Part shown: piece after piece, positions 21,762 through 50,990 of the stretch
Layout: each line of letters opens with the position of its first letter
Numbering within the stretch: the first letter of the stretch is position 1
Source of the DNA: Acidobacteriaceae bacterium
Lineage (GTDB): Bacteria > Acidobacteriota > Terriglobia > Terriglobales > Acidobacteriaceae
Direction of reading: 5' to 3'
DNA length: 64,000 bases
Assembly: GCA_003168355.1 (NCBI GenBank)
Contig: PMSQ01000071.1
Span: forward strand, 80,544-144,543
Position numbers and translations under genes: made by a program
Notes under the pieces: generated by a model
Told to the model about the DNA's origin: nothing
Database searches by the model: none
Seen by the model: the letters and a program-made list of their open reading frames with translations, nothing else

Positions 21762-22970
21762 CTAAAAGGCATCATCGCTGAATAAGGCTCCAGGGGTTTG
21801 CGCCAGGATTTGCAGGTCCAGCCACAAAGACCAGGTCCGCACGTACTGCAGGTCCAGACGCACCATATCGTCAAAGCGCACCCGGCTGCGTCCCTTCACC
21901 TGCCACAGACCGGTGATGCCCGGCTTCACCTCGAGCACCCGGCGGCGATGCCAAAGGTCATATTCATGGCATTCATAAGCGATCGGCGGTCTCGGCCCGA
22001 CCAGCGACATATCCCCGCGCAATACATTAATAAATTGCGGGAGTTCGTCCAGGCTCGTCCGGCGTAGAAGCGATCCGATCTTCGTGATGCGAGGGTCGTT
22101 GGTCATCTTGTAAACCGACCGGCTTCCCCCCTCCGCCCGGCCATCGTGATCGCCTTTGATGACGCGCTTCATGAACTCCTGATGGATCTTGCGGTCATTG
22201 TTCGCATACATGGAACGGAACTTGAGGAAAGTGAAAGATTTGCCGAATTGGCCGAGGCGCTCCTGCCGGAAAAGAATCGGCCCCCGGGAACTGAGCCTGA
22301 CCAGCACCGCTACCGCCAGAAAAACTGGAGATAACAGAACCAGCGCGGCCGCGCTGCCCAGGATGTCCATGCCCCGCTTTACCATGCGGCCGAATTTCTG
22401 GGCTCGGTTGCGGTTGGCAAAGTCCGGATAGAGAGTCGGGTTGCCGTGGGTATTCTCCTGATCCCAGGTCTCCGGGAAAACGTGCATGGAAATGCTGACT
22501 TGGCTGAATTTATCGAGGCTCAGGTTGTTGCGCAGGGTCTCGCTGACCCGGCTCATCATGACGCCCACGATCGACTCCCGCTCCTCGGCGCTGATGTCGG
22601 TAAACATCACCCCTACGATCGAATGGTTCTTGTACCAGCCGGTCACATCGGTCTCCCGCGTGGCCAACGACAAGGCGGACAATATGTTCGACAGCACTTT
22701 TCCGGTTTTGTCGGAGGGCAGGCAGTCTCCGGCGTCGAGCAGCATGAGCAGGAAGGGCTGCCCCGAGCGCTCCGTCCGCTTTCTCTCGAGCCCAATCATG
22801 CGGTGAAAAGGCTCTTCACTCAACACGCCGAAGGTCGGACCCGGGATGGGCCGAACCTGCGGAGAAGTCACCGACGCATTCGATCGACTTAACTTCACAA
22901 CTTGTCTCCCTGCCGCTGCTCCGCCTTGGTCCGAGGAAGCAACGAACGAGTTAGCAATTAGTCTGGACAT
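21762..22970 (-). CDS. Priming polyprenyl-phosphate sugar transferase with degenerate N-terminal GGDEF-like domain
   Basis: A 402-residue fusion. Residues about 45-165 form a GGDEF-like domain in which the signature is lost (GWYKNHS stands where RYGGDEF would be), so it is not a cyclase. A transmembrane helix (GSAAALVLLSPVFLAVAVLV) and the bacterial sugar transferase domain follow, with LRRTSLDELPQFINVLRG and MSLVGPRPP. The domain transfers a sugar-1-phosphate to undecaprenyl phosphate and starts EPS repeat synthesis. ATG at 22970 was chosen; an extension to 23054 overlaps the aspartokinase gene. The N-terminal domain is nearly repeated as a stand-alone gene at 25866-26396. Confidence 0.9.
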   Translation of the reverse strand: MSRLIANSFVASSDQGGAAAGRQVVKLSRSNASVTSPQVRPIPGPTFGVLSEEPFHRMIGLERKRTERSGQPFLLMLLDAGDCLPSDKTGKVLSNILSALSLATRETDVTGWYKNHSIVGVMFTDISAEERESIVGVMMSRVSETLRNNLSLDKFSQVSISMHVFPETWDQENTHGNPTLYPDFANRNRAQKFGRMVKRGMDILGSAAALVLLSPVFLAVAVLVRLSSRGPILFRQERLGQFGKSFTFLKFRSMYANNDRKIHQEFMKRVIKGDHDGRAEGGSRSVYKMTNDPRITKIGSLLRRTSLDELPQFINVLRGDMSLVGPRPPIAYECHEYDLWHRRRVLEVKPGITGLWQVKGRSRVRFDDMVRLDLQYVRTWSLWLDLQILAQTPGALFSDDAF

Positions 22971-23011
22971 TCGGATAATGTGCGGGGGGAGGGACGAAAC
23001 CTTAGTGTTGT

Positions 23012-24637
23012 CTATTGTTCCTGATTGGGGCGGCCGGTCGCGACCGGCTCCCACGGTTGATAGTAGTTCTCATCCTCGTCGCTGGCGGCGCTACCGGCGG
23101 CGGTGGCCAGGTGCCGGGGGTTTCCCAGCCGGAATTCCTGATGGAGGCTGGCCAGCGTCGTTTTCACGTCCTGCTTCGCCACCACAAAAGAAAAGGTGCA
23201 CTCCGAAGAGCCTTGTGCGATCGCTATGATGTTCACGTTTTCCCGGTCCAGCGCTGCGAACGTACGGCCCACCACTCCGGGAACCGATCTCATGTTCTGA
23301 CCGACTACCGTAACCATGGCAACGGTTGGGTCGAGGGCGATATGTTTCGCGGGTTCATGCGCCAGATCGTGGGCAAATTCATGCCGCAACGCCTCCACCA
23401 TGCCCTTGCCGAGCGCCGAGGCAATGACCAGGCACAGGTCGTTTTGTGAAGAGGCTTGCGAAATCAGCAGCACATCGGCTCGCACCGCCGCCGTGGTGCG
23501 GAAGGTGCGGCCCAGTACATCCTGCACTCCGGCCAAGCCGGGCCCGCCGACCGTGATCAGGGCCACCTCGTTGAGGGCGGTCAGCGCCTTTACTCCGGCA
23601 GCGCTCGCCGGTCCGCTCGGCGTAATCTTCGTTCCCGGCCGTTCCGGAGCGAAGGTGTTGCGGATCCAAAGCGGAATGCCGCATTGCATTACGGCACGAA
23701 GGGTTTTCGGATGCAGCACCTTGGCGCCAAAGTAGGCGAGTTCTGCCGCCTCGCGATAGGAAATCTCCGGGATCGTTCGCCCCCCGGTCACCAGGCGCGG
23801 GTCGGCGGTCTGCAGGCCGTCGACATCGGTCCAGATGATGACTTCGTCCGCCGTCAAGGCCGCTCCCAGGATGGTCGCCGAATAATCCGAGCCCCCGCGC
23901 CCCAGAGTTGTGAGTATGCCGTCCGTCGTGGCTCCGATGAAACCGGTTACCACCGGGACGATGTCCAGCTCCAAAAGCGGGCGCAGACCACTATGGCAGC
24001 GCTCCCGCGTCAGATCCATAAACGGGTCGGCGGCTCCGTGGCAGGAGTCGGTGACGACAAGTTCCGTGGCTTCGATCGCTTCGCTGGCCACTCCGCACTC
24101 GGCAAGCGCCGCGGCCACGAGAGGGGCGGAAAGCCGCTCCCCCAGACTCGAGATGGCATCGCGGGTGCGCGGAGTCAACTCGCCGAGCAGCATCGTGCCC
24201 CGGCACAGCCGGTCGCCCTCTTGCAACAACTCCTCTACCTTCCGGTTGATCGAGCTCCGCTCCGCGCTCGAATGGATCAATGCGTCGGCGGCCGCGTCGT
24301 GCTGCCGGCGCAGCTCCGCCAGAATCGCCGCGACCCGCTGGTAATCGCCTGCCTCGGCCTGGCTGGCGGCCGCCACCAGCTGGTTGGTCACGCCGCTCAT
24401 CGCCGAGACCACCACCACCACGTGACTCTCACGCGCGGCGCTGCGGATAATTTCCACAACCTTTCCGATCGAGCCCGCATCGCCCACCGACGTCCCGCCA
24501 AACTTCATGATGCGAATGGGTTTCCTTAGATTGCGGCGCACCTCGCCGTTAACCGGCGCGGGAGCCGGCTGATGCTGCAGAAAGTGCCGGCTGTGCAAGC
24601 CGTTGCGCATGGGACGATTATTCATAGAAGTTGTCAT
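23012..24637 (-). CDS. Aspartate kinase
   Basis: The 541-residue protein phosphorylates the beta-carboxyl of aspartate, the first step toward lysine, threonine and methionine. The KFGGTSVGD kinase motif is at residues 45-53, TTLGRGGSDYSA is in the middle, and the C-terminal part has the paired ACT domains (VALITVGGPGLAGVQ and VAMVTVVGQNMRSVPG), the usual site of feedback control. It carries a 44-residue N-terminal extension not typical of the family; internal ATGs are alternatives. ATG at 24637 overlaps the ATP-grasp stop by ATGA. Its location inside an EPS operon is unusual. Confidence 0.92.
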   Translation of the reverse strand: MTTSMNNRPMRNGLHSRHFLQHQPAPAPVNGEVRRNLRKPIRIMKFGGTSVGDAGSIGKVVEIIRSAARESHVVVVVSAMSGVTNQLVAAASQAEAGDYQRVAAILAELRRQHDAAADALIHSSAERSSINRKVEELLQEGDRLCRGTMLLGELTPRTRDAISSLGERLSAPLVAAALAECGVASEAIEATELVVTDSCHGAADPFMDLTRERCHSGLRPLLELDIVPVVTGFIGATTDGILTTLGRGGSDYSATILGAALTADEVIIWTDVDGLQTADPRLVTGGRTIPEISYREAAELAYFGAKVLHPKTLRAVMQCGIPLWIRNTFAPERPGTKITPSGPASAAGVKALTALNEVALITVGGPGLAGVQDVLGRTFRTTAAVRADVLLISQASSQNDLCLVIASALGKGMVEALRHEFAHDLAHEPAKHIALDPTVAMVTVVGQNMRSVPGVVGRTFAALDRENVNIIAIAQGSSECTFSFVVAKQDVKTTLASLHQEFRLGNPRHLATAAGSAASDEDENYYQPWEPVATGRPNQEQ

Positions 24638-25869
24638 ACCCGTGGCACGCGGACCGGCGATAGACTTTGCGCCGGATCTTTTCTGGAGTGGCGGAGCGTC
24701 GGCTTCCAGCGTCTCCCCACGCAGGCCCGAATCAACGCCGGTTCTTCCCAGGGAACGTCGTGATAGCCCGAGGTCAGAAACGGGCTTGCGGGATCCCTCA
24801 TCCACTCTTGCGGGAACAGCGTAATCAGGTCGCTCTCCGTCACCTTGGGGGCTGCGTGCAAGGTTTCCCCGGACAGAGCGCAGTACAAAGCCGCGGGCAA
24901 GTCGCGTCCCGCGCCCAGCGCCAGGTGTCCAACCTGGGTCGCCCGAGGATTGATTTCGATCAGGTGCGCGTTTCCGGTGTCCGCCTCCAGCATGAAATCG
25001 AAGCCGTGCAGGCCGGAAAGATTCAACTGGCGCGCCATCTTTTCGGCGGCGTCGGCCATTTCAGCATTCTCGATCAAGCGCAATACGCTCGACGGTCCCG
25101 CCGCATCCCGCTTGTTGATCACTTCGAAATGAAGGCTGGCCAGGACATTACCCTGCCAGGCGGCGACCGCGCTGGTGGCTTCGCGCCCCGCCACAAATTC
25201 CTGGGCATTCACCACATGTCGCTGGCGCCGCAGCGCAGACCAGACCAGCGTCTTGTCCTGGTCGATCAGAGCCCGTTTGACCGCCCGAGCCAAAAGAGGA
25301 GGAGCTTGCAGAGCGCGAAAAGCCTGTTCGGCCTCTTCGAGCGTCCGGACGACGCGCACGCCGTCGCCACCGGAAGTGCCGTTCGCTTTCAGCACGGTCG
25401 GGAACCCGGTGTGGGCGGCCCATTTCCGGAGATCCTCGAGGTTTGCGAGGACCCCGGTTCGGGGAGCGCGGATACCGGCCTTGCAGGCCAGATTCATAAA
25501 GGCGGTTCTGGCATAGACCACAGGGAAACTTTCCGGAGCACCGAGCGAACGCTCGATCAGCGCGCAGGTCGAACGTCCGGCTTCCCCGCATCGCCGCTGC
25601 TCGTCGTAAAGCCGGTGCAGGTGTCCGGTGGCCAGATCGTCGCCCGGAAGGATGAATACCGGCTTCGTCGCCGCCACCGCATCCGCGAACGAGCGCAACG
25701 GCATCAGGCCCCGGTAGGGATGAGTTTGGCGCACCGCGCTCATCTGGCGCAGGGGATGTCGAGCCGGACAGACCGCGTCCACGGTGCATCCCGCACTGGC
25801 CAGAGCCATCGCCAGCCGGGCCGTCGGAAACCAGCGCGACGTCGTGGCAATCAGGACGGTTGGCTTCAC
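24634..25869 (-). CDS. ATP-grasp domain protein
   Basis: The 411-residue protein has the ATP-grasp layout: an N-terminal Rossmann-like domain (VLIATTSRWFPTARLAMAL), then FPTVLKANGTSGGDGVRVV (ATP-binding loop), and near the end LHGFDFMLEADTGNAHLIEINPRATQ with the Mg-binding Glu and Asn. ATP-grasp enzymes join a carboxylate to an amine or thiol through an acyl phosphate. GTG at 25869 overlaps the upstream stop (GTGA) and the stop overlaps the aspartokinase start, so all three are coupled. The substrate is unknown; an amino-acid decoration of the EPS is one possibility. Confidence 0.85.
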   Translation of the reverse strand: MKPTVLIATTSRWFPTARLAMALASAGCTVDAVCPARHPLRQMSAVRQTHPYRGLMPLRSFADAVAATKPVFILPGDDLATGHLHRLYDEQRRCGEAGRSTCALIERSLGAPESFPVVYARTAFMNLACKAGIRAPRTGVLANLEDLRKWAAHTGFPTVLKANGTSGGDGVRVVRTLEEAEQAFRALQAPPLLARAVKRALIDQDKTLVWSALRRQRHVVNAQEFVAGREATSAVAAWQGNVLASLHFEVINKRDAAGPSSVLRLIENAEMADAAEKMARQLNLSGLHGFDFMLEADTGNAHLIEINPRATQVGHLALGAGRDLPAALYCALSGETLHAAPKVTESDLITLFPQEWMRDPASPFLTSGYHDVPWEEPALIRACVGRRWKPTLRHSRKDPAQSLSPVRVPRV

Positions 25870-26396
25870 CGTTGTACCAGTCTCCCCTCTTCGTCACGCG
25901 TTGCCAGATCGGGATACAACGATGGAGTGCCGGGCATGGGCGCAGTTTGCTCCTCCCGGTCTTCGGGAAAGAGATGGAAGGAAATGCTCACCTGGTTGAA
26001 TTGCCGCGAACTCAGACGGCTGCGCAGGGCTTCGCTCACCCGCGTCATCACCGTGGTCACAATCGAACTTCGGTCCTCGACGGTGATTTCCGTGAACATC
26101 ACGCCCACCACGCAATCGTCTTTGTACCAGCCCGTCACATCCGTCTCCCGGGTGGTCGCGGCCAGGGCGGAGAGTATTTTCTTCAGAGCTTCTCCGTTTT
26201 TTTCGAAGGGAAAATGGTTTTCCATTTCGATCAGCATCAGCACGGACGGCTTGCGCGAGCGTTCGGCCCGCTTTCTTTCATGCCAGATCACACGCAGGAA
26301 GCCTTCCTCCCGCAAAGTACCGCAGCCTGCGGCCGACGCCGGTTCGGCCGGATGCGGACTCAGAGCTTTAGACAGATTGGAGCGCCGTACGTTCAT
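25866..26396 (-). CDS. Stand-alone degenerate GGDEF-like protein
   Basis: A 176-residue protein almost co-linear with the N-terminal domain of the sugar transferase at 21762-22970: both have HERKRAER/LERKRTER, LSALxxxTRETDVTGWYK, VGVMFT and SRxFNQVSISxHLFPE-type segments. It ends where that protein enters its membrane helix. The GGDEF signature is replaced by YKDDC. It probably binds a partner or regulates the priming transferase; no catalytic role can be supported. ATG at 26396 has GGAGG six bases upstream. Confidence 0.75.
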   Translation of the reverse strand: MNVRRSNLSKALSPHPAEPASAAGCGTLREEGFLRVIWHERKRAERSRKPSVLMLIEMENHFPFEKNGEALKKILSALAATTRETDVTGWYKDDCVVGVMFTEITVEDRSSIVTTVMTRVSEALRSRLSSRQFNQVSISFHLFPEDREEQTAPMPGTPSLYPDLATRDEEGRLVQR

Positions 26397-26518: not shown

Positions 26519-27424
26519 TTACTTCTTTGAGTGGGGGGACTCAGGGGATGATGCTGCCGGGCCGTATCGTTGATAGTAGTCGCTGTGCGCCGCATCGGTG
26601 GAACCATTCACCAATGCGCCCAGAAGCTTTCCGGGTTCCAGCGCCGCCAGCCCGCGCTGCAGTTGCTGTTTCTCGGTGATGCTTTTTCGCGTAACCAGCA
26701 GGACTCCGTCCGCCAGCCGCGCCCAAATGCTGGTGTCAGCCAGCGGCAATACAGGCGGTGAGTCGATGATGATCCAATCAAACCACGCTGTCAATTCCTC
26801 CATCAGGGGGGATAGATGGCCCGATTGCATCAGCTCCAGCGGATTTTCCGGTGCGCTTCCCGCCGGCAGGACCCACAGCCCCAGAGCCTCGAGCCGGTAG
26901 ACGTTCGGGCTCTGGCTTTCGCCCCGCAGCCGTTCACTGAGCCCCGGAACTCTGCCTAACCCGAATTTCTGGGCCACGGTCGGCCGCCGCAGATCGCCCT
27001 CGATCAGCAGGGTTTTATGTTGTTTTCTCCGGGCCAGGGTGCAGGCCAGGTTGGCCGCCACAGTGCTCTTGCCTTCCTGGGGAATGGTGCTGGTGATCAG
27101 GACCTTCTTCAGCGGACGGCTTTGCCGAAGTTGCCGCAACCGAACCGCCAGGAAGCGGAACTTCTCCGCCCCCAGGCTTTCCTCTTCCCCAACCGACACC
27201 AATCGGCTGTCCGGCCGTATCGAAACCGGCAAAGAGGGAAACTGGTCCAAAACCTCGGCGGAGCTGGGGGTGGCGATGTTTCCTGTGGCCGCGCTCCGCC
27301 TCTTCCGCTCCGCGATCTGGAGCAGTTCGGTTGCGACCGAGAACGTAGATGGTTCCGTGAGGGACGATTCGCCCCCCGAGCGCTCCGCTTCCGATCTTTG
27401 TAATGCATCAAATATATGGCTCAT
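26519..27424 (-). CDS. BY-kinase / CpsD-CapB-like exopolysaccharide tyrosine autokinase
   Basis: The 301-residue protein has the bacterial tyrosine kinase motif set: Walker A TSTIPQEGKST at 111-121, Walker A' LLIEGDLRRP at 139-148 and Walker B WIIIDSPP at 217-224. The C-terminal tail has clustered tyrosines (Tyr283, Tyr284, Tyr287), the usual autophosphorylation site. It acts with the Wzz-like protein two genes upstream to control EPS chain length and export. It overlaps the ExeA-like ATPase by ATGA. Confidence 0.92.
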   Translation of the reverse strand: MSHIFDALQRSEAERSGGESSLTEPSTFSVATELLQIAERKRRSAATGNIATPSSAEVLDQFPSLPVSIRPDSRLVSVGEEESLGAEKFRFLAVRLRQLRQSRPLKKVLITSTIPQEGKSTVAANLACTLARRKQHKTLLIEGDLRRPTVAQKFGLGRVPGLSERLRGESQSPNVYRLEALGLWVLPAGSAPENPLELMQSGHLSPLMEELTAWFDWIIIDSPPVLPLADTSIWARLADGVLLVTRKSITEKQQLQRGLAALEPGKLLGALVNGSTDAAHSDYYQRYGPAASSPESPHSKK

Positions 27425-28395
27425 TGTTTAGTCACCACCGGCAGACGGGCCGCCAGTTCCTCATCCCGTTCTCGTGATTGCGCGCTCTGCAGGTGCGCAT
27501 AGAGTTCGAGCAAAGTCTTGGCGGCTTTCCGGAAATCGAGTTCGTCGGGCGCTTTCTTCTTTCCCGCCGCCGGCGTGTGAACCCCGAGGCGGAAGTCTTT
27601 CGCGATCGTGTCGATAATTTCTGGAGCCACGCTGGCGGCCTGCCGGGCGTAGGCTGCAATCAAGGCGTTTTCGCAGATGGTATTGATCAGCCGGGGAATT
27701 CCCTGGGAGTGGCGGTGCACTGCCGCAACCGTCTCCTGCGGAAACAGCCCGGAGGCGCGGGGACTTCCCGCCAGCTGCAGCCTGCGCTCGATATAGCCCT
27801 TGGTTTCGTTCAAATCGAGCGATGCCAGGTGGGAACGCAGCGCGATCCGCTGCTTCAGTTGCCGCAACTCGACCGAGTCCAGTTTCTCATCCAGCTCGGG
27901 CTGCCCCACCAGAAGGATCTGCAACAGCTTCTCGTCGGCGGTCTCCAGGTTGGTCAGGAGCCGGATCTCTTCCAGAATGTCGGTCGAGAGGTGATGCGCT
28001 TCGTCGACCACCAGAACCGTGGTCAGTTTCTTCTCGCCGCGCGCCACCACGTAGCCTGCCAGCTGCAGCAGGAGTTCGCTTTTGTTCTTGCCCGCCGCGG
28101 GCAGTCCGAGGTCGCCGGCAATATACTGCAGAAACTCAAGCGGCGAGAGCCGCCCGTTGAATACGTAAGCGTACTTGACGTCGTCGCTTTGCTTCAGCAG
28201 TTGCAGCAGGCAGCGCAGCAGAAGCGTCTTGCCCGTCCCCACCTCTCCGGTTAAAACCACAAACCCTTTGTGCCGCCGGACGCCGTAATAAAGCGCGGCC
28301 AAAGCTTCGTTGTGCCGCTGGGTGGGAAACAAAAACGAAGGATCGGGAGTGATCTCAAACGGGTTGCGCTTCAAACTGTAAAAGGCCTTATACAT
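27421..28395 (-). CDS. XrtA/EPS-associated AAA ATPase, ExeA-like
   Basis: The 324-residue AAA ATPase starts with MYKAFYSLKRNPFEITPDPS, the conserved opening of ExeA/GspA-type ATPases found in exosortase-associated EPS operons. Walker A GEVGTGKT is at 50-57 and Walker B VLVVDEAH at 127-134, with a sensor-like GQPELDEKL segment. It is thought to couple ATP hydrolysis to assembly of the export machine at the inner membrane. It starts 11 bases after the Wzz stop. Confidence 0.92.
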   Translation of the reverse strand: MYKAFYSLKRNPFEITPDPSFLFPTQRHNEALAALYYGVRRHKGFVVLTGEVGTGKTLLLRCLLQLLKQSDDVKYAYVFNGRLSPLEFLQYIAGDLGLPAAGKNKSELLLQLAGYVVARGEKKLTTVLVVDEAHHLSTDILEEIRLLTNLETADEKLLQILLVGQPELDEKLDSVELRQLKQRIALRSHLASLDLNETKGYIERRLQLAGSPRASGLFPQETVAAVHRHSQGIPRLINTICENALIAAYARQAASVAPEIIDTIAKDFRLGVHTPAAGKKKAPDELDFRKAAKTLLELYAHLQSAQSRERDEELAARLPVVTKQ

Positions 28396-28406: not shown

Positions 28407-30017
28407 CTAGCCGCGCCAGTAGCTGAGGGCTGACCCCAGCAGAATCGTAACCGATACCAAAGCCGCTGTCACCCATCCCAACCACAAGCGCCGGCGTTCC
28501 AACTGCTGGTCGGCCGGTGCCGCCAGGGCGGGGATTTCCGAGATGACCGGCACCGGCAGCAGCTTCTGCAGCTCCTTCTCGTCGTAAATCCGGTCGTCCA
28601 TCACTTCGAAGGCCGCGGCCACAACCCCGCCCAACGCCAGTCCGAAGCCCAGCCCGATCACGCAAAACTTCAGGCGGTTGGGGAAGTCGGGTTTTGCGGG
28701 CAGGCTGGGAGGATCGACGATGCGAAAACGCTCACCCTGCTGCAGCAGCTCCATGCTGGTGGCCATGGCCGACTCGTTCTTTTTCTTCAAAAGCTCGTCG
28801 TAGTTCGCCTTGGATTGATCGTAGCCCCGAGTCAAATCGGAGAGCTGCTGTTCGCGCACCGGCTCCTGATTCAGTCTTGCCTGGTAGTCCGTAACCTTGG
28901 CTTTCAACTCCCCGACGCTGCGCTCGCGGTTGGAAATCTCCACGCGGTTGGCCTGGATCTGACCCTGCAACTGCACCATCGGCGACGATGCGTCCCTCAT
29001 GTCCGCATCCGTGGGCGTATTCGCGGCACCGGGATCGGCCTGGGCGGCCGCGGCTTTGGCTTTCAGGCTGGCGGCGAGCTGGCTCCTCGTGGCTTCGGTT
29101 TCGGCGATCTGTTCCTTGAGCTTGCGCACGTCGGGGTGGCGGTCGGTGTAATGCGAGCTCAGATCGGCCAGTTGCGCCCGCAGCTTGTCGAGCTCTTCAT
29201 CGATCGCCGGCAATCCCAGGGCTGCGCCGCTGGCGGCTTTCGGCGTGCCTTGCAGCGAATGGTACTGATTCATCAAAGTTTCCAGGTAGACACGCTGCTG
29301 CTTCGCGGTATTCAGCGAATCTTCTTCGGTCTGCAACTGGGACTGCATGCCGGCCAGAATCTGCAGGTTGCTGCCGACCTGCGCGGGCAGCTCTCCGACG
29401 TGTTGTCCCTTGAACTGGCGAATCTTCTCTTCCTGGTCCGACAGGATCTTGCGCGCGGTCTCCAATTGGCCTTCGAGAAATTGGGTGGTGTCTTCCGACT
29501 GCTGCTGGCGCACTTCCAGGTTCTCGCTGATGAACAGGTTGGTGAGTTCGCTGGTCACCTGCTGGGCCACGCGAGGATCGTGCGATGAGTAGTAGACGTT
29601 AAAGGCGCTGACCCGGTTCTCCGGGTCGCGCACCAGTTCGATCTCGATCTCTTTGCGCATCCGCTCCACTTTGTCGTCGGGCGTAAGGTGGCCGTGAGAA
29701 TCCCCGTACAGGTTCAGCTGATCGATAATGTGCAGCAGACGGGTGCGGCTGAGAATCTGCTGGGTGATGCTGCGCAGGCGGTCCTGTAGATCGTCGTTCA
29801 CGTTGGGCGTGACGTAATCCTTCGGCATGGTGGGCTGTTCCACCAGAATCAATGTTCCGGATCGATAGCGTGACGGCAGAACCCAGCTCGCGCCCCAGAC
29901 TGCGAACCAGCCCAGCAGCAGAGGCACCAGAAACTGCATGTGACGGCGGCGCGCGATCCCCAGGTAATGCGGCAGATCGAAGCCGCCCGTTTTTTGTTCG
30001 TCGAAATCTTCAGGCAT
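28407..30017 (-). CDS. Polysaccharide chain-length determinant, Wzz/GumC-like
   Basis: A 536-residue inner-membrane protein. It has a first membrane helix (FLVPLLLGWFAVWGASWVLP near 30-50), a long periplasmic part predicted to be coiled coil (Leu/Glu/Gln-rich, about 150-430), then the Pro-rich DPPSLPAKPDFPNRL motif and helices near 465 and 510. This is the co-polymerase (PCP) layout, here without a fused kinase domain, consistent with the separate BY-kinase gene downstream. Confidence 0.92.
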   Translation of the reverse strand: MPEDFDEQKTGGFDLPHYLGIARRRHMQFLVPLLLGWFAVWGASWVLPSRYRSGTLILVEQPTMPKDYVTPNVNDDLQDRLRSITQQILSRTRLLHIIDQLNLYGDSHGHLTPDDKVERMRKEIEIELVRDPENRVSAFNVYYSSHDPRVAQQVTSELTNLFISENLEVRQQQSEDTTQFLEGQLETARKILSDQEEKIRQFKGQHVGELPAQVGSNLQILAGMQSQLQTEEDSLNTAKQQRVYLETLMNQYHSLQGTPKAASGAALGLPAIDEELDKLRAQLADLSSHYTDRHPDVRKLKEQIAETEATRSQLAASLKAKAAAAQADPGAANTPTDADMRDASSPMVQLQGQIQANRVEISNRERSVGELKAKVTDYQARLNQEPVREQQLSDLTRGYDQSKANYDELLKKKNESAMATSMELLQQGERFRIVDPPSLPAKPDFPNRLKFCVIGLGFGLALGGVVAAAFEVMDDRIYDEKELQKLLPVPVISEIPALAAPADQQLERRRLWLGWVTAALVSVTILLGSALSYWRG

Positions 30018-30044: not shown

Positions 30045-31421
30045 CTATCTTCCGAGCGGTCTGGCAAATTGATAAGAGACGGCAACCCACTCCCGATTCG
30101 TATCCGGATTCGCCGAAATAAAGCTGTAGGTCTGGTGCAGCCGCGTGTACCCGGCTTGCAGGTTCAGATGCTCGCCCACCTCGCGCTGCAGGGAAGCGCT
30201 TCCGGAAATGGAATGTCCGCCCAGGTCGGCAAGCGCGAGCACGCCGTTGTTCGCATACGTTCCCGCCAGCGCGGCCCTGAGGTTGCGTGTGAGCTGTTGC
30301 CGCACCGAGGCATTCGCGCTGTCGAGTTCGACCGCTCCGACCAGCCCGCCCCCGCCGCTGACACTGTGCAAATAGCTGACTGCCAGGCTGGTGTGCTGCG
30401 CCTGCCAGTTCAAGCTGGCGCCGCCGGCCGGCGACCAGGACTGCGAAGCCGGCACGGTCGTCGGGATCGCGCCGGTGAATTGCAGGCCCGCGCTGTAGTA
30501 CTGCGGACCGCCAAACAGTGAAAACGAGAACCTGGGCCCCGGATAGAATGAGTAAAAAAGGTAAACCCCGTCCGTCTGCGTCTGGTTCGTCCCTCCGGTT
30601 GGATAAGAGAGCAGTTGCTGATATTGATAGGTCACGCCGAGATAGTGCTGCCGGGAGAGGCGGTAGCTGTAAAAAGCCGATCCCCCTCGCGAAGCTGCAT
30701 CGTAAAGCCCCGGCACTTCGGTGGGGTTTGGGTAGTGCAGGTTGGTGAAGGTCCCGCTCGCTCCCACCATCGCGTTGGCGCTGAATTGATAGGTGATGCC
30801 CGCGTTGCCGGTATTGCTCAACCGGTCCGCCAGCGGCGCAATCACGGAATCGTTCACACCCTGCGCCGAACCCGAAACCGCTCCCGCGAAACCTTGATCC
30901 GGCTGATTGAAGACATCGGACGTTTTTTGGAAGGAATCGCGCAGGCTGACCGTCACATGCGGACTCAGCCGGTACTGCAAACTCAGCGACAGATTCTGGT
31001 CCGCCTCATTGTAGGCGCTGGTGCGCTGATAAAACGTGAAGCCCGGAGCGTAGCTCAAGACCGTGTGCAGCCGCGACGTGGTTTCGTCGAGCGCGATGGT
31101 GGGCCATACCGAATAACTCACGTCACTCACCGGAGTGAGGCTGGTCGCGCCCAGAACGTTGTCGGAGTAGGCGGTGGTGAAGGTAACGCCCCCGCGCAGA
31201 TAATTGGCCCGCTCCTCGGAGGCAAGCGACAAGGGATAGGCTTGTCCGCTCACCGGAGGCGGCGTCAGCATGCGGTCTTCGCCGGGGTCGCTGTTCGGCG
31301 AGATCGATAGCATTGGCCCGCTCACCGCCGGAACTGGAGCGGCGGGCTGCCGCTCCTGCGACCAAAGCGGAAGGCTGGCCAGCAGAACCAATCCCCACCC
31401 GACTGAAGCGAGGGTTCTCAT
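30045..31421 (-). CDS. Outer-membrane beta-barrel protein of EPS operon
   Basis: The 458-residue protein begins with a signal peptide (MRTLASVGWGLVLLASLPLWS) and then alternates amphipathic strands with aromatic ends (for example NYLRGGVTFTTAYSDNV, FSFSLFGGPQYYSAGL), ending in WVAVSYQFARPLGR. This fits the PEP-CTERM-system-associated outer-membrane proteins of exosortase operons. It lies between the Wza-like export gene and Wzz. Its role in export is inferred from context; homology at sequence level would be weak. Confidence 0.78.
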   Translation of the reverse strand: MRTLASVGWGLVLLASLPLWSQERQPAAPVPAVSGPMLSISPNSDPGEDRMLTPPPVSGQAYPLSLASEERANYLRGGVTFTTAYSDNVLGATSLTPVSDVSYSVWPTIALDETTSRLHTVLSYAPGFTFYQRTSAYNEADQNLSLSLQYRLSPHVTVSLRDSFQKTSDVFNQPDQGFAGAVSGSAQGVNDSVIAPLADRLSNTGNAGITYQFSANAMVGASGTFTNLHYPNPTEVPGLYDAASRGGSAFYSYRLSRQHYLGVTYQYQQLLSYPTGGTNQTQTDGVYLFYSFYPGPRFSFSLFGGPQYYSAGLQFTGAIPTTVPASQSWSPAGGASLNWQAQHTSLAVSYLHSVSGGGGLVGAVELDSANASVRQQLTRNLRAALAGTYANNGVLALADLGGHSISGSASLQREVGEHLNLQAGYTRLHQTYSFISANPDTNREWVAVSYQFARPLGR

Positions 31422-31443
31422 GATCGCGCTTACGGAATAGTGT

Positions 31444-32082
31444 TTACGGAACAATGATCGTATCGCCCGGCTGCAGTTTAATGTTCTGCGCCATATTCTT
31501 GCCTTGACTGACTTCCTTGTAATTAAACGGCAGGCGCGACTCTCCGCCGGCGCCCTGCCTCAGAACATAGACGGATTTCTTCTTGGCGAAATCGCGGAAG
31601 CCCCCGGCCAGCGCAATCGCATCCAGCACCGTCGGGGAATTGGCGATCCCGTAGGAGCCCGGCTTTACGACTTGGCCCAGGATGTTGAACTTCTGGCTGT
31701 TGACCGTCTGCACGATCACCGTAACTTCCGGCTCGGAGATGTAGTTCTTCAGCTTGACCGCGATATCTTTTTCGAGCTTCATGGGGGTGAGCCCGGCGGC
31801 CTGCACCTCCCCCACCAGCGGAAGCGAGATTTTTCCGTCCGATCGGACGGGAATCGAACGCGAGATATCCGGCTCTTTCCAGACATTTATGGTCAGCACG
31901 TCGTCGTTGCCGATCACGAAACTGTCGTCGTGCGGCTTCCCCGCCGAAGGGTCCGTATCGTGGCCCGCTGCGGTGGTTTGCCCGCCCAGGGAACCGGTAA
32001 ACAGGGAACCGGTGCAAAGGACGCAGACCAGCAGCCGCACAACCAGTCGTCCCCTCCACCCGCTGCATGCCCCTATGGTCAT
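31444..32082 (-). CDS. Polysaccharide export protein, Wza-like
   Basis: The 212-residue protein has a hydrophobic export signal (LVVRLLVCVLCTGSLFTGSL), the polysaccharide-export domain (FVIGNDDVLTINVWKEP, then VRSDGKISLPLVGEV) and one SLBB domain (FNILGQVVKPGSYGI). It forms or joins the outer-membrane export channel. ATG at 32082 is preceded by GGAG; an extension to 32229 overlaps the regulator gene. It is shorter than E. coli Wza and has a single SLBB domain. Confidence 0.9.
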   Translation of the reverse strand: MTIGACSGWRGRLVVRLLVCVLCTGSLFTGSLGGQTTAAGHDTDPSAGKPHDDSFVIGNDDVLTINVWKEPDISRSIPVRSDGKISLPLVGEVQAAGLTPMKLEKDIAVKLKNYISEPEVTVIVQTVNSQKFNILGQVVKPGSYGIANSPTVLDAIALAGGFRDFAKKKSVYVLRQGAGGESRLPFNYKEVSQGKNMAQNIKLQPGDTIIVP

Positions 32083-32140: not shown

Positions 32141-33787
32141 TTAACTTGCCTTCCCGTTGCCCTTGACGTCGTTGCCATACACCGAAAACTCGTCGACCGC
32201 GAGCGGCGAAAGGTAGGGCTCGGGCGCACGCATGTGGTACTGATCGATCTTGTACAATAACGTGCGATAGCTGACCCGGAGCAAGCGCGCGGCCGCCTTG
32301 CGATTCCAGCCGGTCCTCCGCAGCGCCGCCCCGATGGCGTTCTGCTCCGCTTCCGACTTGATGCCCTGAATCAGGGACTTCAGCGATTCCGGTTTGCCCG
32401 GTTTCTGCCCCGATTCGTTCTCTTCCCATGAAGCCGGCGCCATTCTGGTCACCCGCGACAAAGGACCGTGATCGGCAAGGTCCGCCGTGTCTAATCCCAT
32501 TTCACCGAGAGTCAGCTCTTGGCCGCCCGCAACCAGGTAGCGTTTCACGAACGCTTCCATTTCTTTCAGGTTTCCCGGCCAGGAATAATTCTGGCAGGCA
32601 TCCAGCATCGCGGAGGAGAATCCGCGGGGGGGAAGGTTGTAGTGCTTGGCCAGCTTGTGCATCAGATACCGCAGCAGAATTGCAATCTCGTCTTTCCGCT
32701 GGCGCAGCGATGGCACCTGCACGGTGAAGGCGCTTAAGCGGTAATACAGGTCTTCCCGCAGCTTCTTCTCGGCCAGGGCACGCTCCAGGTTGGCGCTGCT
32801 CGCTGCCAGGATCCTTACCTCGGCGGGAATTGACTCCCCGGCTGATCTTTGGAACTCACTGTTCTGCAAACCCTGGTTTTGCAAACCCTGATTCTGCAAA
32901 CCGTGATTCTGCAAAACCTGATTTTGCGAACCCTGATTCTGCAGCGCCTGCAGCAGCCGGGATTGCAGTGCCGCCGGCATAGCGGCGATTTCGTTCAGGT
33001 AAATCGTGCCTTTTTCGCCCGCTGCGAACCTGCCGAAAACGGTTCGGCGGCCGCCCGCGGCGTCGCCATCCCCAAACAGTTCGGCTTCCAGCAGGGACTC
33101 CGGCATCTCCGCACAATTCACCTTCAGCAGCTTGAAACCGGAGCGGACCGAGAGCTTGTGAATCAGACTGGCAACCGTGTATTTCCCGCTCCCTCCCTCT
33201 CCCAGAATGAGCACCGGAACATCGGTCTGCGCCAGCAGCGCCGCCTGCGCGCGCAACTTCTGCATGATCAGGCTGGCGCTGACGAAAAATACGTCCTCGC
33301 CCAGCGGCTCGACATTTTCGCTGACGATTTCCGCCTTGCCGTTTCCTGTGTGCCCGTTCCCCGCAGGTCCGTTTCCAGAAGCTCCATTTCCATTTGCGCC
33401 CGGTTCGAGATGAAGATGCCACCGGATTACAGATTCGAGTTGGTGCTCGTCGAACGGCCTGACCAGAATCTCTTCCGCTCCCAGGCGGGTTGCTTCCTTC
33501 TCTCGCGCGGCATCATCCCGGTGGCACAACACGACGACCGCAAGATTAGGGCGCAGCCGGCGCAGCCAGCGCAAGAGGTGAAGGCCGTCGGCTTCACCGC
33601 GAGGAAGATCCAGCACCAGCAGGTGGGGCGCGATTCCGGATTGCACCCGCTCCATGGCATCCCAACAACTGGCTGCCGTTTCCAGACGCCAGGAGTTCGA
33701 TTCTTCCATCGACCAAAGCTGACGAAGAACAGCCGGGTCCCGGCTCACCATCAGCAAGCGAATTGTTTCGTGCGTGTTTTCCGTCAA
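32141..33787 (-). CDS. NtrC-like AAA+ transcriptional regulator with degenerate motifs
   Basis: The 548-residue protein has a receiver-like domain (LLVLDLPRGEADG with a candidate phospho-Asp; the lysine of the usual KP pair is Arg in ILVRPF), a linker of GNG repeats, an AAA+ domain (Walker A GEGGSGKYT, second region REDLYYRLSAF) and a Fis-type HTH (NRKAAARLLRVSYRTLLYKI). Two key parts differ: the GAFTGA loop that contacts sigma-54 is absent after ELFG, and Walker B reads IYLNEI, with Asn for Asp. A 15-base repeat array sits inside the AAA+ domain. It probably regulates EPS genes, perhaps not as a classical sigma-54 activator. Confidence 0.85.
   Translation of the reverse strand: MTENTHETIRLLMVSRDPAVLRQLWSMEESNSWRLETAASCWDAMERVQSGIAPHLLVLDLPRGEADGLHLLRWLRRLRPNLAVVVLCHRDDAAREKEATRLGAEEILVRPFDEHQLESVIRWHLHLEPGANGNGASGNGPAGNGHTGNGKAEIVSENVEPLGEDVFFVSASLIMQKLRAQAALLAQTDVPVLILGEGGSGKYTVASLIHKLSVRSGFKLLKVNCAEMPESLLEAELFGDGDAAGGRRTVFGRFAAGEKGTIYLNEIAAMPAALQSRLLQALQNQGSQNQVLQNHGLQNQGLQNQGLQNSEFQRSAGESIPAEVRILAASSANLERALAEKKLREDLYYRLSAFTVQVPSLRQRKDEIAILLRYLMHKLAKHYNLPPRGFSSAMLDACQNYSWPGNLKEMEAFVKRYLVAGGQELTLGEMGLDTADLADHGPLSRVTRMAPASWEENESGQKPGKPESLKSLIQGIKSEAEQNAIGAALRRTGWNRKAAARLLRVSYRTLLYKIDQYHMRAPEPYLSPLAVDEFSVYGNDVKGNGKAS
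32864..32938 (-). repeat. Five tandem 15-base units inside regulator gene
   Basis: Five consecutive 15-base units (consensus on the plus strand CTGCAAACCCTGATT) encode Gln-Asn-Gln-Gly-Leu-type pentapeptides in the regulator at 32141-33787. Units differ by one to three bases and the frame is kept. A sixth, diverged unit may follow at 32939-32953. Confidence 0.9.
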
Positions 33788-49676: not shown

Positions 49677-50990
49677 TCAAGCGATGCCGGCGGTCTTGCT
49701 GCGGACTCCGCGTCGGCGCGAAGACGCGGTTTCGACGCGATTGCGTCCTGCGGCCTTGGCACGGTAGAGAGCTTTGTCGGCTGCCTGGATAACTTCTTCC
49801 GCCGACGAATTCTCCTGCCTTGAACTAGCAACCCCAATGCTGGCCGTCACCGAAATCTCCGTCGGCGAGGTGGGACGCGAGAGTTGCCGGATGGCATGCC
49901 CGGTTTGGATCCGCCCAGCTTGGATCCGCGCTCGAGTGCCCATGTTTCCCGGTCCTGTCCTTCGGCGGTCTGGGCCGCGCGCCTCCTGCCGGCGCTCTTT
50001 GCCCCGGAGTCTGAGCGTGCCGGCTTCAATGTCGGCGCGCAGCTTTTCCAGAGGATCCAGCACGTCAACCGTCGTCTTGCCGGGAAACAGGATTGCAAAC
50101 TCTTCTCCCCCGCACCGGTAGGCTTTTCCTCCGCCCGACACTCTCGCCAGCTTTGAGGCAACCAGACGCAATACCTGATCTCCCGCATCATGACCGTAGG
50201 TGTCGTTGCATCGTTTGAAGTGATCGATGTCGACCATGGCAATGGAATACGGTGGATCGAGGCGAAGTAGGGCATCGTGGAACGCGCGGCGCGAAGGCAG
50301 CGTGGTTAGTTCGTCGTGATAGGCCAGCAGGTAGGAAGTCTCAACGATAGAAGCCGCCAGTAAGAAGGCGGCGGTGGCGAAGTAAGCCGCCGGGATTCGC
50401 CCCGCTCCTCCGAACCGCAGCGCCAGAAAGCAGCTCGCCAGCGCCCAGAGAAGGCCGTTCTCCACCGGCCTGTGAAATAGCAGAAAGCGTATGAGCAGCA
50501 CCACGGCTGCGCCTGCGAATGCCAGCACCGTGGCAAAAGGCAACGGAGCAGGCGCAGCAGCATGGTGCAACCCATGCGCGCCGCTCAGCGCATCCGGCCG
50601 GCAAAGCACGGCTACGATTACAGACTCGACAAACAGCAGCAAGGCTGGAGGCGCGCCGCTCGAAAAGGTGAATCCCTTTTCGTGCTCAAGTGAGAGAAGA
50701 ACAAAGTTGAAAGGCAGGAGCAGACCCACCGCCGCAAGGGCGATGCTTCCCGGTCCGCTGGTTGCGGCATGCCCGGAAGAAAAGTATGCGATCGCCTGCT
50801 GCCCGAGGAACAGAACCAGCACGGCGAAGAAGATGCGGCTGGAATGAAATCGCCAGGCCATCAGAAGGCCCGCGATCAATGCACCATAAAGCGCAAAAGT
50901 GACGAGCGCCGCGCTGGGGGTAACCAGGCCGGCGTGCAGCAACACCGCCGCCGCCAGAAGACAAATCCCGGGCGTCAGCAGGGACTTCAT
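49677..50990 (-). CDS. Membrane-bound diguanylate cyclase (GGDEF)
   Basis: The 437-residue protein has about six or seven membrane helices in its first 220 residues, then a GGDEF domain: DELTTLPSRRAF, MVDIDHFKRCNDTYGHDAGD and the active-site GGEEF at 294-298, and SIGVAS. It should make c-di-GMP. No RxxD inhibitory site precedes GGEEF. An Arg-rich insertion of about 50 residues, between LEKLRADIEA and SVTASIGVAS, is unusual. The gene is divergent from the propeller protein gene. Confidence 0.88.
   Translation of the reverse strand: MKSLLTPGICLLAAAVLLHAGLVTPSAALVTFALYGALIAGLLMAWRFHSSRIFFAVLVLFLGQQAIAYFSSGHAATSGPGSIALAAVGLLLPFNFVLLSLEHEKGFTFSSGAPPALLLFVESVIVAVLCRPDALSGAHGLHHAAAPAPLPFATVLAFAGAAVVLLIRFLLFHRPVENGLLWALASCFLALRFGGAGRIPAAYFATAAFLLAASIVETSYLLAYHDELTTLPSRRAFHDALLRLDPPYSIAMVDIDHFKRCNDTYGHDAGDQVLRLVASKLARVSGGGKAYRCGGEEFAILFPGKTTVDVLDPLEKLRADIEAGTLRLRGKERRQEARGPDRRRTGPGNMGTRARIQAGRIQTGHAIRQLSRPTSPTEISVTASIGVASSRQENSSAEEVIQAADKALYRAKAAGRNRVETASSRRRGVRSKTAGIA

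Follow-up and report, generated by a model that had tools for sequence, protein, structure and literature searches.

The exopolysaccharide (EPS) operon described here encodes a degenerate GGDEF domain twice, once fused to the priming transferase and once as a separate protein, which raises the question of what such a domain does at the initiation of EPS synthesis and how its two forms are related. A preliminary description of the window (the whole 64,000-nucleotide stretch of DNA that was analysed) had listed the two open reading frames and given no strand; both are present, on the minus strand (Table 1). Plus-strand readings were rejected, as stops break the frame across the transferase gene and the frame across the smaller gene is unrelated. 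BLASTP comparison of the two minus-strand proteins gave 49% identity and 65% positives over 179 columns (E 8e-52), with residues 1-176 of the stand-alone protein aligned to residues 25-199 of the fused one. The nearly end-to-end alignment reported earlier is thus borne out, while its placement on the first 165 residues of the transferase is slightly off. The fused protein has a predicted membrane helix at residues 192-212 and the homology ends just before it; that the stand-alone protein stops where the transferase enters the membrane had been correctly noted, its end falling at the start of this helix. The stop of the stand-alone gene overlaps the start of the ATP-grasp gene by a few bases, and no third copy of the domain was found in the genome.

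Table 1 Genes of the EPS operon in the window, ordered by position
Feature	Position	Strand	Remarks
Fused priming transferase	21762..22970	(-)	402 aa; degenerate GGDEF about residues 48-169, monotopic phosphoglycosyl transferase (PGT) 198-397
Aspartate kinase (AspK), between the two copies	23012..24694	(-)	Start codon not fixed
ATP-grasp protein, between the two copies	24634..25869	(-)	
Stand-alone degenerate GGDEF protein	25866..26396	(-)	176 aa; ATG start; GGAGG ribosome site
CpsD-like polysaccharide tyrosine autokinase	26519..27424	(-)	TIGR01007 above cut-off; directly upstream of stand-alone gene
XrtA/PEP-CTERM-type ATPase	27421..28395	(-)	TIGR03015, E 1e-82, below cut-off
Polysaccharide chain-length protein	28407..30017	(-)	TIGR03007
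Outer-membrane protein of EPS operon	30045..31454	(-)	Weak TIGR03016
Polysaccharide export protein (Wza-like)	31444..32070	(-)	PF02563; start codon not fixed
Sigma-54 activator with receiver domain	32141..33787	(-)	First conserved gene of the operon

The Pfam GGDEF model (PF00990) does not call the domain (E 0.06; 13.5 bits against a gathering score of 23.8) and matches just 2 of its 86 members at E 0.01, and no sequence relative was found among solved structures. Its identity emerged from profile and structure comparison. A profile of the 86 relatives aligned to nine GGDEF domains of the same genome with 94.8% probability (hhalign, E 5e-8). The predicted structure matched GGDEF domains as well: the best Foldseek hit was 6khu (E 1.7e-7), which superposed by VIA-align over 115 residues with a Z of 14.0 and an rmsd of 2.2, and many GGDEF domains came next. 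Mean pLDDT was 72 for the stand-alone model and 84 for the fused one. Both lines of comparison, by profile and by predicted fold, identify the shared domain as a GGDEF fold, and support the original view of a degenerate GGDEF domain occurring both fused and free in an EPS operon.

We then asked which functional sites of the domain have been kept. In the profile alignment, a six-residue gap lies over the GTP-binding loop. The positions of the GGDEF signature read KDDCV in the stand-alone protein and vary freely among 112 relatives, in keeping with the earlier remark that neither protein carries the signature. With loop and signature gone, neither should be a cyclase, and an active diguanylate cyclase was rejected. 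By contrast with the lost active site, the inhibitory site (I-site) for c-di-GMP is retained, as R43, R83, D86 and R119 in the stand-alone protein and R65, R105 and D108 in the fused one; this had gone unnoticed in the preliminary description. R83xxD86 aligns on the RxxD motif, R119 on the arginine of the next helix, and R43 on the arginine fourteen residues before the metal-binding aspartate position. We take R83, D86 and R119 to be the equivalents of PleD R359, D362 and R390, and R43, by count, that of R313. Across 112 sequences (17 stand-alone and 95 fused), R43 is kept in all 112, R83 and D86 in 111 each, an arginine or lysine stands at the R119 position in 110, and RxxD is intact in 110; the stand-alone copies, which have several origins, keep the I-site in 16 cases out of 17. 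Only seven columns of the 86-row alignment are invariant, and three of these are I-site residues. The others (E40, R46, L53 and G89) are to our knowledge not I-site contacts, and W90 and Y91 are nearly invariant in the 112 sequences. As a control, canonical GGDEF domains of the family were inspected: 30 of 35 carry RxxD and all 35 the arginine, so the motif was inherited and the argument is one of retention rather than presence. In one genome (G639; L141 2117-3932) the I-site is altered in both proteins, to SDID in the fused one (first arginine lost) and to REIE in the stand-alone one (glutamate for aspartate).

Loss of the active site together with retention of the I-site points to c-di-GMP sensing, and suggests that the catalytically dead domain has been kept as a putative c-di-GMP receptor. 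It also offers a possible concrete mechanism for heterodimerisation: in WspR, c-di-GMP is bound by R242xxD245 and by R198 of a second GGDEF domain (PMC2270323). GGDEF domains dimerise, and the conserved residues outside the I-site contacts, with the tryptophan and tyrosine that follow G89, would also suit a pseudo-GGDEF module that dimerises without ligand, the stand-alone protein serving as a constitutive dominant-negative or stabiliser independent of c-di-GMP; this is the proposal of the preliminary description in its simplest form. We consider it rather unlikely, as the arginines of both the primary and the secondary I-site have been kept, along with the aspartate, while the rest of the nucleotide site has drifted.

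The other half of the fused protein is an intact monotopic PGT. It matches PF02397 with an E-value of 1.3e-66, its model resembles the PglC and WbaP folds, and D308 and E309, presumably the catalytic Asp-Glu pair from what is generally known of PglC, are conserved at 90% or more. The model has no membrane bundle before residue 192, where WbaP-type enzymes have four transmembrane helices and a DUF; instead, the N-terminal half is the GGDEF-like domain. Uridine nucleotides act on the WbaP DUF (PMC10942596) and UMP is the release product of all PGTs, so the domain might by analogy sense UMP, a UDP-sugar or another nucleotide in place of c-di-GMP. This is very unlikely for a domain that has a GGDEF-like fold and whose conserved positions correspond to the c-di-GMP contacts of WspR and PelD.

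Matches to models of XrtA/PEP-CTERM EPS systems were obtained for the kinase, the ATPase and the chain-length, export and FemAB proteins of the operon, several of them below the curated cut-off, and by these matches we assign the operon to that kind; two exosortase matches were found at other places in the genome. The genome also encodes canonical GGDEF and EAL proteins, which would be available to make and break c-di-GMP. One membrane GGDEF protein is encoded within the window itself (49677-50990, minus strand); its domain has an intact GGEEF motif, is interrupted by about 60 inserted residues and lacks RxxD before the motif, and the protein is a possible local source of c-di-GMP. The aspartate kinase and ATP-grasp genes (23012-25869) form part of the EPS operon and have genes for FemAB-like and FkbH-domain proteins nearby, an arrangement that may point to amino-acid decoration of the polysaccharide.

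The pair was next sought in other Acidobacteriota, and it recurs there, mostly in conserved synteny, an outcome in favour of the earlier proposal. The domain is carried by 96 of 300 genomes of the family, nearly always in the fused form, and the pair was found in about 16 sampled Acidobacteriota genomes from three families. Those within the family are G000, G176 (L004), G657 (L003), G661 (L005), G082, G298, G654, G022, G096, G154, G142 and G249, where the assignments of L003 and L005 were judged from lengths and spacing; those outside it are G468 (f2) and G413, G590 and G639 (f59). Frame-broken fused genes in G294, G241 and G048, which may be assembly errors, were left out of this count. The stand-alone copy is missing from most genomes that carry the fused gene, which indicates that the fused domain can work without it. 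In G468 (L140 2594-5446) a single fused gene is accompanied by two stand-alone copies, of which one lies on the opposite strand. In G082 (L035 5568-8195), AspK and the GGDEF-like PGT share one open frame of 876 residues with no stop between them, and may be one three-part protein there. No plasmid match was found, and spread by plasmids was rejected on this ground.

Gene order bears on what the free protein acts upon. Most paired loci have the kinase, then the stand-alone gene, ATP-grasp, AspK and the fused gene. In the ten unpaired or separately paired loci that were read, the tyrosine kinase gene is followed immediately by the fused gene, and the unpaired G662 reads kinase, fused gene, ATP-grasp, AspK. 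The copies of G142 and G249 either lie far from each other or belong to different contigs. A stand-alone gene placed directly after the kinase gene and overlapping the ATP-grasp start in the window could encode a c-di-GMP sensor whose target is not the fused PGT but the tyrosine kinase or ATP-grasp/AspK, or a protein that acts as a c-di-GMP sink; tyrosine kinases can activate PGTs, as CapAB does with CapM (PMC6441080). This is unlikely given that unpaired genomes have the kinase followed by the fused PGT with no free copy, and that the free and fused genes are neighbours in G298 and the f59 genomes, with neither ATP-grasp nor AspK between them.

To trace the free copy, we compared tree topologies. 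One clade (100/98) unites the fused partners from the syntenic pairs of the family, and a single origin of the syntenic stand-alone copies was not rejected (AU p 0.11 to 0.62). A clade uniting stand-alone copies with their fused partners was disfavoured (AU p 0.025), which speaks against a recent duplication of the partner itself as the source of the free copy. The free copy of G142 is sister to its own fused copy, which supports a separate origin there, and a separate origin is likely for the f59 copies too. From its position in the operon, the free copy is probably a former transferase minus its catalytic half. The stand-alone gene is under purifying selection: its dN/dS is about 0.06-0.27, and that of its domain 0.06-0.24, against 0.05-0.16 for the fused domain of the same organisms, and a pseudogene reading is disfavoured by these values. 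The gene does sit where the fused gene ancestrally stood, and a remnant is visible in G658 (L184 5675-6367), a 61%-complete metagenome-assembled genome with Ns in the contig, in which all that can be recognised between kinase and ATP-grasp is the C-terminal end. Even so, a functionless, decaying remnant of a former fused transferase is hardly credible as a general account of the free copy in view of a dN/dS so low and close to that of the fused domain, and of the I-site retention in the stand-alone copies.

We favour the model in which a c-di-GMP receptor domain controls the initiating PGT and the stand-alone protein acts in trans on the fused one, and put its probability at roughly 0.5. It builds on what was computed: the fold, the loss of the active site, the retention of I-site residues, selection, and the recurrence and synteny of the pair. 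In the fused protein the GGDEF domain takes the place of the regulatory N-terminal part of large PGTs, and it would bring the initiating PGT of an XrtA-type EPS operon under the allosteric control of c-di-GMP, probably by way of dimerisation. The free protein is this domain minus the catalytic half, sits in the slot that the fused transferase has in unpaired genomes, and would most likely act in trans on the fused protein, perhaps by I-site cross-linking, with c-di-GMP as the bridge from R83xxD86/R119 on one domain to R43 on its partner. Mixed dimers might then set the threshold or the extent of EPS initiation. Binding of c-di-GMP, heterodimerisation, the dimer mode, the partner and the sign of the effect, activation or inhibition, are elements that we infer. 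More tentatively still, the pair may be a split c-di-GMP switch, in which a PGT with an I-site-only GGDEF domain and a free paralogue derived from a transferase form c-di-GMP-bridged mixed dimers that time the start of lipid-linked sugar synthesis, and which would have evolved more than once in Acidobacteriota.

Post-translational control of Wzx/Wzy-type systems is incompletely understood, and control by c-di-GMP is well described for synthase-type systems (PMC12802240). If our model holds, c-di-GMP would be coupled directly to the step at which undecaprenyl phosphate is committed, in many Acidobacteriota, and the free paralogue would allow the idea that I-sites cross-link two GGDEF-like domains to be tested in vitro on a pair of small proteins. 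Degenerate GGDEF receptors and trans-regulated PGTs are each known; in the open-licence literature we found no description of their combination, of GGDEF-PGT fusions or of c-di-GMP-binding PGTs.

The closest precedents come from four systems. PelD, the receptor of Pel polysaccharide systems, has a degenerate GGDEF domain whose RxxD binds c-di-GMP, and biofilm formation depends on this binding (PMC7112168). The domain described here is likewise degenerate, with an intact RxxD and a second arginine, and lies inside an exopolysaccharide operon; however, PelD belongs to a synthase-type system, of which it is a membrane GAF-GGDEF subunit, whereas our domain occurs either joined to or apart from the initiating PGT of a Wzx/Wzy-like (XrtA-type) operon. 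BcsE, a regulator of cellulose secretion, has a degenerate GGDEF-like domain that lacks catalytic residues and binds c-di-GMP via an I-site motif (reviewed in PMC8461298), a likeness by description, but it belongs to the cellulose synthase complex and includes no PGT. WbaP shares with the fused protein the arrangement of large monotopic PGTs, a C-terminal PGT domain and an N-terminal cytosolic domain, and its N-terminal cytosolic part is implicated in dimerisation and nucleotide sensing (PMC10942596); it differs in its four-helix membrane bundle and its DUF, where our protein has a soluble GGDEF-like domain. Finally, in Myxococcus xanthus the free single-domain protein EpsW activates the initiating PGT EpsZ, probably through the PGT dimer (PMC12802240). 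A small free regulator acting on the initiating PGT of an EPS pathway is what we propose here, except that EpsW is a phosphorylated receiver unrelated to any EpsZ domain, whereas our free protein is homologous to the regulatory domain of the PGT. Taken together, these precedents make it most likely that c-di-GMP would operate by controlling a PGT dimer, with the free domain as a partner in mixed dimers.
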